IMG/VR virus record: IMGVR_UViG_3300028553_000013
Location: 1 to 64,000 of that record
Direction: 5' to 3' (one strand)
Length of the DNA: 64,000 bases
Source of the DNA: a virus
Made by a program: the position numbers and the translations under genes. The notes under the pieces are model-generated. The model was given only the letters and a program-made list of their open reading frames with translations, ran no database searches and was not told the DNA's origin. Position 1 is the first letter of the stretch. Each line of letters begins with the position of its first letter. This document shows, piece by piece, positions 2,531 through 52,662 of the stretch.

Positions 2531-2820
2531 GGTTGTGGAAAAGGTTGTGGAAAACTTTATAATCTACTGATATACTCCTAAATGTGATTTTATGCCTTAT
2601 AATGCCCGCTGCCGTTGTTGCCTAAGCGGTCGCACTATAAGACACGCCCATCTCAGAGTTCCTCCCCGTCCAATTATAAGACACACAGCACACTTTTCCA
2701 CAGCAAACTTATAAGTTTTCCACACGTTTTCCCCAGTTCCTTATAAGTTTGCCACAGGGCATTCGTGTTACATTAAGTGATACACAGTGTTCTTCGTTAT
2801 ATCTGTGGAAAACTTATAAG
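2531..2820. other. Cluster of DnaA-box-like TTTTCCACA motifs and CTTATAAG palindromes (candidate replication origin or control region)
   Basis: Five perfect TTTTCCACA/TGTGGAAAA motifs lie within 290 bp: 2534-2542, 2546-2554, 2694-2702, 2716-2724 and 2804-2812. The first two are parts of a 12-bp perfect tandem repeat (GGTTGTGGAAAA, 2531-2554). The composite CTTATAAGTTTTCCACA occurs at 2708-2724, its exact reverse complement at 2804-2820, and a one-mismatch copy at 2740-2756. TATAAGACAC is repeated at 2636-2645 and 2675-2684. TTTTCCACA is, as I recall, the DnaA-box consensus of Synechococcus. Function is inferred; a transcription-control array is the alternative. Confidence 0.6.
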
Positions 2821-2827
2821 TTTACTT

Positions 2828-3049
2828 ATGGGAATGACTTCGCCCTATAATAGACAGTCAACTTACACACCTTCGTTAACACTTAGCATGTCCGTTGAAC
2901 TAATGGTAAATACACTTCGTCTCGGTAACACTGGGCGGGAGATCTTGCACATCCTGGACGCTGTTGCATCCAATGATCAGTTTACCACACCTAGCAGTGT
3001 TTGTCAAGTCGCTTATAAGCAACCCACAGCAGATGTGATCGACTTCTGA
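2828..3049 (+). CDS. Hypothetical protein, 73 aa
   Basis: The frame is open from 2777, but the beginning overlaps the repeat-rich control region, so I prefer the ATG at 2828 (MGMTSPYNRQSTYTPSLT); ATGs at 2834 and 2888 remain possible. The conserved-looking core is MSVELMVNTLRLGNTGREILHILDAV, a helical segment I associate with small cyanophage proteins of unknown function, followed by a polar tail. It ends 11 bp before a strong hairpin. A DNA-binding or replication-linked role would fit the location but is not shown. Confidence 0.55.
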   Translation: MGMTSPYNRQSTYTPSLTLSMSVELMVNTLRLGNTGREILHILDAVASNDQFTTPSSVCQVAYKQPTADVIDF

Positions 3050-3059
3050 TAGTTATTCA

Positions 3060-3101
3060 CCCCGTTCGTCATTGTCACTTATGGACAGTGATTTAACGGG
3101 G
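3060..3101 (+). terminator. Strong two-part hairpin after the 73-aa gene
   Basis: The outer stem CCCCGTT (3060-3066) pairs with AACGGGG (3095-3101). The inner stem TCATTGTC (3069-3076) pairs with GACAGTGA (3084-3091) with one G-U wobble, around the loop ACTTATG. Only a broken T run follows (TTCCTTATATTTTG), so it may be an imperfect terminator or a structured element belonging to the origin-like region. Confidence 0.45.
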
Positions 3102-6380: not shown

Positions 6381-6472
6381 ACCCTATTGCAAAACTTATT
6401 ATATGGATCAAAGGTGAATATAAGTTATGGAAACTTCGCAGGGAAGATCCTTACATTTATGAAGATGATTGA
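6377..6472 (+). CDS. Hypothetical basic mini-protein, 31 aa
   Basis: ATG at 6377 overlaps the previous stop (ATGA); TGA at 6470-6472 lies 2 bp before the carbamoyltransferase ATG. Begins MNPIAKLIIWIKGEYKLWKL. The first half is an amphipathic or hydrophobic helix that could sit at a membrane, and the tail is acidic. The tight coupling on both sides is the main reason to call it. Confidence 0.4.
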   Translation: MNPIAKLIIWIKGEYKLWKLRREDPYIYEDD

Positions 6473-6474
6473 TC

Positions 6475-7860
6475 ATGATTGGAATAAGTGAAGGTTTTCA
6501 TGATGCTGCAATATCAGTAGTTAATGCTGGTAAGATTAAGTTTGCTGCCCATGCAGAACGTTATTCTAGGGTAAAGCACGATAAGCATTTAAATCTATCA
6601 GTATGTGCAGAAGCATTACGTTATACTGAAGATGATATTGTTGCATTCTATGAACGTCCTTGGTTAAAGCGTACTCGTCATTTTTTTGCAGGACAGTATA
6701 AGAGTGCATTCAAAGAAAGAAATATCTATCTCACCCCAAATCGATATTATTCACATCATCTCTCCCATGTTGCTGCAGCATTTCAGACATCACCATATTC
6801 AGATGCTGCATGTGTTGTCGTAGACAGTATTGGTGAGTGGGACACTGCTTCAATCTGGCACGCTCAGATGGTGGAGGGATGTGCTAAGTATAAGAAAGTA
6901 TGGTCTAAGAAATATCCAAATTCTATTGGTCTATGGTATTCTTCTTATACAAAATGGGCAGGTTTAAAACCCTTAGACGAAGAATACATCTTTATGGGTA
7001 TGGCAGCATTTGGTAAACCCTTATACGTCGAGCAAGCGCGTAAACTTCTCTCTAGAAATAACCACAAAGGCTTTCCCATCTCTATTGAAGGAAATCCAGA
7101 AGACAACTCAAAAAGCGCCGAGATTGTTCTCCATGAGGAACTGAGAAAAATTTTCAATAGGGCAAGGACAATTAGTAATAATATTTGTTATGGTGGAGGA
7201 GTTGCTCTAAATTGTGTGGTGAACGCTAAGTTACAAAAAGAACATCCGTTTATGTGGATTATGCCTAATCCAGGAGATGCTGGAGCTTCTTTAGGGGCGG
7301 CTTTGTTATCTTATGGTGGTAAAGTCATCTTCACCCCATATTTGGGTGAAACCATTCAAAAAACGATTGATCCAAAAGAAGTTGTTGACGCATTGCTTCA
7401 CAAAGGCATGTGTGGAATTGCGAATGGTCCTGCCGAGTTTGGACCACGGGCTTTGGGTAATAGAAGTCTTCTAGCGGATCCTAGGACGATTCAGATGAAG
7501 GATTTAGTCAATACCATTAAGAAGAGACAAAGGTTTCGTCCATTTGCCCCTGCCATATTAGAAGAACATTGTCAGGACTATTTTCGTATGCCACCAGACA
7601 GTCGCTATATGTCCTTTGTATACGACTGTAAGCGTCCTGATGAGATCCCAGCATGTGTTCATGTAGATAATACCGCTAGGGTTCAAACAGTTCCTACATG
7701 GTCTTCCAGCGTCCTTAGAGAAATACTTGAATGTTGGTATGAACGCACTGGATGCCCAGTTCTTCTTAATACATCATTAAATATTCGTGGTATGCCAATT
7801 GTCAATACTTGGCAAGATGCTCAAGATTTTTCCAAAACTTATCTAGTTGACATATTCTAA
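6475..7860 (+). CDS. Carbamoyltransferase (NodU/CmcH family), 461 aa
   Basis: These enzymes transfer a carbamoyl group from carbamoyl phosphate, through an adenylate, to hydroxyls of sugars, antibiotics or cell-surface glycans. The N-terminal TsaD-like domain shows GISEGFHDAA, HH at 94-95 with His98 (SHHLSHVAAAF), VDSIGEWDT, and GGGVALNC near 240. The C-terminal carbamoyltransferase domain carries FGPRALGNRSLLADPR near 321 and RFRPFAPAI. I start at ATG 6475; a TTG two codons upstream is less likely. Homologues occur in marine cyanophages. With the sulfotransferase and glycosyltransferase it suggests glycan decoration. Confidence 0.9.
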   Translation: MIGISEGFHDAAISVVNAGKIKFAAHAERYSRVKHDKHLNLSVCAEALRYTEDDIVAFYERPWLKRTRHFFAGQYKSAFKERNIYLTPNRYYSHHLSHVAAAFQTSPYSDAACVVVDSIGEWDTASIWHAQMVEGCAKYKKVWSKKYPNSIGLWYSSYTKWAGLKPLDEEYIFMGMAAFGKPLYVEQARKLLSRNNHKGFPISIEGNPEDNSKSAEIVLHEELRKIFNRARTISNNICYGGGVALNCVVNAKLQKEHPFMWIMPNPGDAGASLGAALLSYGGKVIFTPYLGETIQKTIDPKEVVDALLHKGMCGIANGPAEFGPRALGNRSLLADPRTIQMKDLVNTIKKRQRFRPFAPAILEEHCQDYFRMPPDSRYMSFVYDCKRPDEIPACVHVDNTARVQTVPTWSSSVLREILECWYERTGCPVLLNTSLNIRGMPIVNTWQDAQDFSKTYLVDIF

Positions 7861-51258: not shown

Positions 51259-52662
51259 ATGTTCAATTCTGCTGCACTGCAGAAGAAGTGGGCTCCTCTT
51301 CTAGAGGCACAAGGTCTTGATTCAATCAAAGACAACCACAGAAGAGCAGTTACTGCCCAACTTCTTGAAAACCAAGAAAGATTTCTAAGAGAAGAGCGTG
51401 CTTTTCTAACTGAAGGACCTCCAACAATTAACACCGACCCTTCTGCAACAGGTAATGCAGGTTTCAGTGGTTCTGGTGCATCACCTGTTGCTGGTTTCGA
51501 TCCAGTTCTAATCTCATTGATTAGACGTGCAATGCCTAACTTGGTCGCCTATGACCTAGCAGGTGTTCAACCAATGAACGGTCCAACAGGTCTTATCTTT
51601 GCGATGAGAACCCGTTACGACAACCAGAACGGTACTGAAGCATTCTTCAACGAACCAGATTCTGCATTCTCTGCACAAAACTCTGCAGCAACTCTTACCC
51701 AAGGCGACTACACTGGTGGTTCCGATGATGGCACCAACGTTGGTTTTGGTACAACTGCACAGTCAGGCACCAATCCATCGATCCTAAATGGTGGCGTAAA
51801 TAATACCTACAACCTAGGTCAAGGTTTTAACACCCAATCACTAGAAACACTTGGTGATAATAGTGCTACTAACGACTTCCGCGAAATGGCTTTCTCTATT
51901 GAGAAAGTTAGTGTTGCCGCAAAGTCAAGAGCACTTAAAGCTGAGTACTCGCTAGAACTAGCACAAGACCTTAAGGCAATCCACGGTCTTGATGCTGAAG
52001 CTGAACTAGCAAATATCCTCAGCACTGAAATTCTTGCTGAGATCAACCGTGAGATCATCCGTACAATCTACAAGGTTGCTAGAACAGGTGCTCAAACCAA
52101 CGTTGCAACCGCTGGTATATTTGACCTAGACGTTGATTCCAACGGTCGTTGGATGGTTGAGAAGTTCAAGGGACTAATGTTCCAACTTGAGCGTGATGCA
52201 AACGCTATTGCACAAGAAACTCGTAGAGGAAAGGGCAATATTATCCTTTGTTCTGCTGACGTTGCTTCTGCACTTGCTGCTGCTGGTCAACTGGATTACA
52301 CTCCAGCACTTTCAGCAAACCTACAGGTTGACGACACTGGTAATACCTTCGCTGGTGTTCTAAACGGTCGCTTCAAGGTCTATATCGATCCATTCGCTGC
52401 AAACCTAACCGCAGATCAGTACTACGTCATGGGTTATAAGGGTTCAACTCCTTATGATGCAGGTCTATTCTATTGCCCATACGTTCCTCTTCAGATGGTT
52501 CGTGCAGTTGGTCAGGATAACTTCCAGCCTAAGATTGGATTTAAGACCCGCTACGGCATGGTCGCAAACCCATTCGCTGAAGGAACTGGTGCTGGCGCAG
52601 GTCGCATTGCTGAGAACACCAACCGTTACTACAGAAGAGTAAAGGTACAAAACCTAATGTGA
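51259..52662 (+). CDS. 23: Major capsid protein (gp23-like), 467 aa
   Basis: HK97-fold major head protein. The N-terminal prohead sequence MFNSAALQKKWAPLLEAQGL is conserved. A probable gp21 cleavage site is FLTE|GPP after Glu52, following the Leu-X-Glu rule known from T4. Strongly conserved core segments are LISLIRRAMPNLVAYDLAGVQPMNGPTGLIFAMR, MAFSIEKVSVAAKSRALKAEYSLELAQDLKA and GFKTRYGMVANPFAEG. Codons here are visibly more GC-rich and regular than in neighbouring genes, as expected for a highly expressed gene. A terminator follows. Confidence 0.98.
   Translation: MFNSAALQKKWAPLLEAQGLDSIKDNHRRAVTAQLLENQERFLREERAFLTEGPPTINTDPSATGNAGFSGSGASPVAGFDPVLISLIRRAMPNLVAYDLAGVQPMNGPTGLIFAMRTRYDNQNGTEAFFNEPDSAFSAQNSAATLTQGDYTGGSDDGTNVGFGTTAQSGTNPSILNGGVNNTYNLGQGFNTQSLETLGDNSATNDFREMAFSIEKVSVAAKSRALKAEYSLELAQDLKAIHGLDAEAELANILSTEILAEINREIIRTIYKVARTGAQTNVATAGIFDLDVDSNGRWMVEKFKGLMFQLERDANAIAQETRRGKGNIILCSADVASALAAAGQLDYTPALSANLQVDDTGNTFAGVLNGRFKVYIDPFAANLTADQYYVMGYKGSTPYDAGLFYCPYVPLQMVRAVGQDNFQPKIGFKTRYGMVANPFAEGTGAGAGRIAENTNRYYRRVKVQNLM

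Follow-up and report, generated by a model that had tools for sequence, protein, structure and literature searches.

The DNA analyzed here (the window) is a 64,000-nucleotide stretch of a viral genome whose genes for gp23 (51259-52662), the gp18 sheath protein and UvsW mark it as a T4-like cyanomyovirus. The window contained five perfect copies of TTTTCCACA, at 2534-2542(-), 2546-2554(-), 2694-2702(+), 2716-2724(+) and 2804-2812(-), and none outside 2534-2812, which confirmed the report of five copies within 290 bp in the first-pass annotation. The frequency assumed there for a given 9-mer, about one per 130 kb, was too low; the dinucleotide expectation for TTTTCCACA is 1.48 per 64 kb, or about one per 43 kb and 4.7 per genome. 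An IMG/VR record of 171,943 bp that is nearly identical to the window (one mismatch in 64 kb, offset of 1) contained seven copies in total, five in the array and the other two at 72.8 and 153.1 kb. In 200,000 uniform placements, five of the seven copies never fell inside 290 bp of 172 kb. Because the abundance of TTTTCCACA is modest relative to the dinucleotide expectation, the anomaly lies in the clustering of the copies rather than in their number. The proposed comparison of scatter with clustering thus came out on the side of clustering: the motif is concentrated at the array and is not spread over the genome. A second motif, CTTATAAG, was present in six copies in the window (1.36 expected), four of them at 2708-3019.

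An AT-rich stretch (2481-2530; 82% AT) lies at the left end of the locus and is, by its base composition, a candidate unwinding element; this AT content is reached by only 1.5% of the window's 50-mers. It is followed on the minus strand by two tandem DnaA-type boxes 12 bp apart (GGTTGTGGAAAA x2; 2531-2554), the perfect pair that had been noted at the start of the array. The same 12-bp tandem pair occurs in S-CREM1, S-PM2 and S-MbCM6 and in the dnaN-upstream region of one Nostoc genome. A scan of bacterial genomes for 12-bp tandem boxes returned matches in many phyla and was set aside as not discriminating. A second AT-rich segment (2555-2605; 73% AT) leads to a conserved element, GCCCGCTGCCGTTGTTGCCTAAGCGGTCGCACTATAAGAC (2604-2642, minus strand), which is nearly invariant among homologues and is homologous to the family element TTGTGATCTWAGCGNGC. 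Beyond it is a direct array on the plus strand (2694-2756), with perfect boxes at 2694 and 2716 and one-mismatch boxes at 2727 (TTTTCCCCA) and 2748 (TTTGCCACA); the spacings of 22, 11 and 21 bp are helically phased. The 17-bp composite CTTATAAGTTTTCCACA occupies 2708-2724 (plus strand), and, as first described, it recurs with one mismatch at 2740-2756 (plus strand; CTTATAAGTTTGCCACA, perfect in L009, L013, L022 and L031) and as its exact reverse complement at 2804-2820 (minus strand). The box of this inverted copy is conserved and its CTTATAAG arm is phage-specific among the direct homologues. The inverted repeat formed by 2708 and 2804 has a strong predicted fold in the window phage (z -5.6), and a long hairpin was rejected as a functional unit because homologues have not retained the CTTATAAG arm at 2813.

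Downstream of the array, TATAAT at 2846-2851 (plus strand) is the putative -10 of a rightward transcript for the next small gene, and the window and S-CREM1 have GGGAATG...GCCCTATAA(TA)GACA near it in common. The next reading frame (2888-3049, plus strand; 53 aa) is conserved in the direct homologues, so the initial description of the region as almost gene-free holds up to 2887 and not beyond. A tblastn search with this ORF gave no match in isolate phages; S-CREM1 has a similar small ORF after its second box pair. The strong hairpin after the small ORF (3060-3101, plus strand) was confirmed (-23.9 kcal/mol, z -5.06), and neither a U-tract nor a terminator-like site was found there. Rfam and tRNA searches gave no matches.

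The composite motif recurs beyond the window phage. The 17-mer CTTATAAGTTTTCCACA was found in 37 IMG/VR contigs, 27 of which have at least three boxes within 300 bp, whereas the control CATTAATGTTTTCCACA, a composition-matched palindrome before the box, was found in eight contigs and never in clusters. The fusion of CTTATAAG to the box is therefore recurrent and enriched. The isolate DSL-LC03 also carries it, and its downstream array is flanked by the CTTATAAG composite at both ends. The CTTATAAG half may bind a second, phage factor, as proposed in the first-pass annotation. In L009 and L022, the boxes that are imperfect in the window (2727 and 2748) are perfect, giving a four-box direct array with spacings of 22, 11 and 21 bp. 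Alignment columns were identical among the direct homologues at 50 of 63 positions inside boxes vs. 109 of 217 between boxes. Pairs or clusters of TTTTCCACA were also observed in GC-rich viral contigs that are unlikely to be cyanophages (L095, L112, L124, L143, L147 and L169), and the DnaA-box theme may be wider than the cyanophages.

The array detected no match among isolate phages by blastn at E 1e-3, and only pieces of about 25 bp at E 10; the comparison therefore relied on synteny and on counts of the motif. Clusters of two to five boxes were present at the syntenic place in six cultured Synechococcus phages (S-CREM1, S-PM2, S-MbCM6, Syn9, S-SM2, and DSL-LC02), and S-SKS1 has one perfect box and two copies of TTATCCACA in an equivalent setting. 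No cluster of perfect boxes was found in T4, P-SSM2, S-SCSM2R or S-PRM1. Nine complete genomes were compared, six with TTTTCCACA (A-type) and three with ATTGAGAAT (B-type). In all nine, gp25/gp6 are downstream of the array at a distance of 2.9-7.6 kb; the non-coding module has a dda-like helicase gene on one side and gp25/gp6 on the other, and is present once per complete genome examined. It lies at 52.6 kb in Syn9, 19.2 kb in S-PM2 and 87.8 kb in S-CREM1. A small conserved gene (T4-like GC 637; 1462-1776 in the window) is near the module, on either side, in nine of nine genomes. The interval from the array to the baseplate genes gp25/gp6 in the window includes a carbamoyltransferase gene (6469-7860; Pfam N and C domains). 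The palindrome CTCGACGAG forms arrays just downstream of the module in L202 (2359-2616), L197, L214, L478 and S-SRM01 (L567 1760-1910); some extend into the next small gene, and P-SSM2 has the variant CTAGTCGAG.

Relatives were also sampled independently of the boxes, by scanning IMG/VR for TTGTGATCTWAGCGNGC, the family form of the conserved element (CTWAGCG) that adjoins the arrays. The scan yielded at least 81 loci with 500 bp upstream, at least 74 of them non-redundant, and 72 of the 74 listed loci encode relatives of reference cyanophage proteins (T4-like cyanophage genes). Among the matches listed, gp25 was downstream on the same strand in all 38 environmental contigs (median 3.0 kb) and the dda-like helicase gene was upstream in all eight cases. 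The commonest repeated 9-mer was TTTTCCACA, with at least two copies in 31 of the 74 listed loci and 91 copies at 50-250 bp from the element, where 0.11 were expected. At least two DnaA-like boxes (TTWTNCACA) were present in 37 of the 74 listed loci and in none of 4,293 background windows; this 50% is perhaps biased upward, as the anchoring motif was derived from loci that included box-bearing ones. TTATCCACA is among the variants tolerated in the listed loci, where the 3' half (CCACA) hardly varies. Neighboring boxes in the same orientation were spaced 11-12, 20-22, 32 or 42 bp apart in 26 of 27 cases among the loci listed; these spacings correspond to helical turns and so place the boxes on one face of the helix. 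A second, smaller concentration of boxes, at +100 to +150 relative to the element, matches the two-part array of the window, and AT content in the 74 listed loci peaks (0.76) at 125-175 bp from the element. In a further sample, taken through the GC637 protein, at least two clustered boxes were present in 18 of 80 contigs vs. none of 240 shuffles; many of the 62 contigs without clustered boxes are fragments.

Read on the minus strand, the conserved element has the signature of a leftward sigma-70-type promoter, TTGACA-N17-TGnTAnnnT ... CGCTWAG. A promoter score of at least 9 was obtained for 97% of the 74 listed loci, compared with 3% for the opposite strand and 2% for shuffles; the spacer was 17 in 60 of 72 listed loci and the extended -10 was present in 68 of 72. 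As predicted from this signature, transcription from the family promoter would run leftward and antisense to the genes, crossing repeats of about 33 bp and the boxes on its way to the AT-rich stretch. Tandem repeats with a period of about 21-34 bp, in up to five copies, were observed between the sites and the promoter in L400, L412, L419, L435, L436 and L468, where they end in the promoter start region. The clade of the window has kept a -10-like TATAGT (2639-2634) and has no good TTGACA -35; the only hit of the promoter scan in the window was TGGAAA-N16-TATAAT at 2700-2673. The leftward promoter is also weak in several isolates. The first-pass annotation had regarded coincidence with RNA polymerase start sites, combined with replication or GC skew mapping elsewhere, as damaging to an origin. 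A predicted promoter does adjoin the array, but this is expected for T4-type origins and is not fatal to the proposal.

The slot that holds the boxes is occupied by other sites in part of the family. At least two TTGAGAA sites were present in 10 of the 74 listed loci (expected, 0.6%), arranged as inverted or direct ATTGAGAAT arrays in the box slot, and further listed loci have TGTGTAACACAT or additional repeats there. The isolates S-RSM4, S-H9-1 and ACG-2014h belong to the ATTGAGAAT type, with 0-1 TTTTCCACA in each whole genome, and DSL-LC03 carries the TTTTCCACA and ATTGAGAAT site types side by side, in tandem. In the Prochlorococcus phages P-SSM2, P-SSM4 and P-HM2, the AT-rich part is present together with a TTAGCG element, and boxes are absent. 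The presence of other motifs in the slot of relatives indicates that the site is swappable, and ATTGAGAAT or other motifs in that position imply other binding proteins. Comparison of the gene content of A- and B-type genomes, a small and phylogenetically confounded sample, gave no obvious DNA-binding initiator present in six of six A-type and none of three B-type genomes. The proteins with exactly that distribution were one resembling gp33 and one of 408 aa. The helicase loader gp59 was rejected as a gene that separates the types, since it was found in five of six A-type and none of three B-type genomes and is missing from the A-type phage S-PM2. A gp59 profile built from five cyanophages detected no significant homologue in S-RSM4, S-H9-1, ACG-2014h or S-PM2.

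Experimental support exists for TTTTCCACA as a cyanobacterial DnaA box (PMC4674748), in agreement with the identity given in the first-pass annotation, which had named it the Synechococcus box. A phage-encoded DnaA was rejected as the binder, since PF08299 gave no match above the cut-off in any of 13 phages. The module resembles cyanobacterial oriC in its clustered TTTTCCACA boxes, its 11-12 bp tandem pairs and its AT-rich neighbor. The further suggestion that the phage mimics oriC did not hold, however. The picocyanobacterial dnaN-upstream regions examined contained just 0-3 perfect boxes. The phage array is therefore no simple copy of these host regions, and simple mimicry was rejected. Neither dnaA nor dnaN was found beside the array, where the neighbors are small ORFs, and the DnaA-trio was detected in none of 31 arrays, nor in the window, whereas CTACTACTA (DnaA-trio) occurs in some picocyanobacterial dnaN-upstream/oriC regions. 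Finally, the phage boxes are replaceable, their slot being taken by other motifs in related phages.

GC skew, which had been proposed as a check on the origin, follows the coding strand and has no usable minimum. The GC3 skew of forward genes (array +/-60 kb) drops across the module in nine of nine genomes of either iteron type, a shift opposite to that of a simple origin. Skew was thus rejected as an origin test, being dominated by the coding strand and, in its GC3 version, of the wrong sign.

The conserved non-coding module, whose genome position is shared among T4-like cyanophages, is, on comparative sequence evidence, most likely a replication origin. In the family its layout is that of T4 origins and its position is similar, and for these reasons it is read as a transcription-primed origin with iterons. 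The candidate origin of the first-pass annotation is thereby retained as a conserved, syntenic, AT-rich and iteron-bearing module; it is not a copy of oriC, and its GC3 skew has the wrong sign. Further points that weigh against an origin with DnaA boxes are the missing DnaA-trio, the few perfect boxes of the picocyanobacterial dnaN-upstream regions examined, the many related phages that have no boxes (62 of the 80 contigs sampled through GC637, many of them fragments, and three Prochlorococcus phages), and the leftward promoter, which lacks a good -35 in the window phage and is weak in several isolates. We consider it probable that the array supplies the iterons of a T4-type (R-loop) origin in which the boxes, in this phage, are cyanobacterial DnaA boxes. 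As TTTTCCACA is the cyanobacterial box and the phages encode no DnaA, the boxes are read as sites for the host protein, and host DnaA would most simply be the protein that binds them in the window phage and about half of the listed relatives. More tentatively, the family may possess a single conserved hybrid origin with a T4-style transcription-primed core, made up of the antisense promoter and the unwinding element, and an exchangeable cassette of binding sites, in which DnaA boxes recruit host DnaA in about half of the lineages.

In the family, the module comprises, in order, the AT-rich stretch, the helically phased boxes, often the repeats of about 33 bp and usually the predicted leftward sigma-70 promoter. 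At such an origin, host RNA polymerase would produce a short antisense transcript, and the protein bound at the boxes may help to melt the AT-rich segment or keep it open. The RNA would remain as an R-loop and prime leading-strand synthesis, and the phage helicase and replisome would load at the module.

An alternative is a role in transcription control, in which the boxes or alternative motifs would be operators for the leftward antisense RNA, for the rightward early small genes or for both, and replication would not start at the module. The strong conserved leftward promoter signature adjoining the boxes is consistent with such control, as are the putative rightward -10 and conserved small gene directly after the second array and the second box peak relative to the element. 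However, a position-specific AT-rich stretch adjoins the boxes, each complete genome examined has one module rather than many operator sites, and the module parallels the T4 promoter-plus-DUE origins and the position of oriE; control of transcription alone therefore appears unlikely.

Replication may also start at the module with a phage-encoded initiator that recognizes TTTTCCACA, instead of host DnaA, bound to the boxes. Iteron origins are usually served by a Rep protein of their own, and different motifs in the slot among related phages would be expected if initiators were swapped. The motif is nevertheless exactly the cyanobacterial DnaA box, with TTATCCACA among its one-mismatch variants and a near-invariant CCACA, and no obvious initiator gene emerged from the small and phylogenetically confounded A/B comparison, which makes a phage initiator unlikely. 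It is very improbable that the boxes are a sponge that titrates host DnaA and stops initiation on the host chromosome, as E. coli datA might suggest, for although the phage array has more perfect boxes than the picocyanobacterial dnaN-upstream regions examined, a cluster of just 2-6 boxes per phage genome is small, relatives hold non-DnaA motifs in the slot, and a sponge would not need a fixed position beside a promoter and an AT-rich stretch.

The reading of the module as an origin that recruits host DnaA can be examined at exact coordinates in Syn9, S-PM2, S-CREM1, S-SM2, S-MbCM6 and DSL-LC02/03, and for the other type in S-RSM4/S-H9-1/ACG-2014h, so that origin use, the exchange of iterons and the recruitment of host DnaA can be tested directly in viruses that are abundant in marine and fresh waters. 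A search of the open-access literature for cyanophages with a DnaA box or iterons found nothing relevant.

The minimal T4 origins oriF and oriG consist of a promoter and an A+T-rich unwinding element (DUE) where the transcript forms an R-loop (PMC3016281). The cyanophage family promoter likewise points at an AT-rich stretch, but the T4 origins use MotA middle promoters and have no iterons, whereas the cyanophage promoter is a plain sigma-70 one, separated from the AT-rich stretch by the boxes; motA is reportedly missing from cyanomyoviruses (PMC2984593). T4 oriE has an early promoter and 12-nt iterons of unknown role (PMC3016281). In the T4 record, oriE is at 79,355 and gp6 at 81,081, which places oriE 1.7 kb upstream of gp6, and the oriE primer RNA is antisense to gene 5. 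Both oriE and the cyanophage module are thus repeat-bearing and upstream of baseplate gene 6, and T4 has an antisense primer RNA from an early promoter. The T4 repeats, however, are inside gene 5, with no DnaA-like boxes and no sequence match, and although the cyanophage module has a 12-bp tandem pair, its common spacing is 21 bp. The oriE repeats were observed to form a 24-nt periodic coding repeat (L658 2903-3070; T4 79402-79569), and the published 12-nt iterons may be no more than repetition within a protein-coding sequence. Since the T4 repeats fall on coding repeats within gene 5, the likeness to oriE is one of position and layout, not of sequence.

The iteron origins of plasmids RK2, P1 and pSC101 also bind DnaA and have helically phased repeats adjoining an AT-rich region. 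No Rep gene was recognized beside the cyanophage array, which belongs to a lytic T4-like genome, but the module has the same phased repeats of one site beside an AT-rich region. A review cites a single theta origin predicted for Syn9 (PMC2984593). Syn9 carries the module at 52.6 kb, and if the predicted origin is at that position, part of the present result was foreseen.
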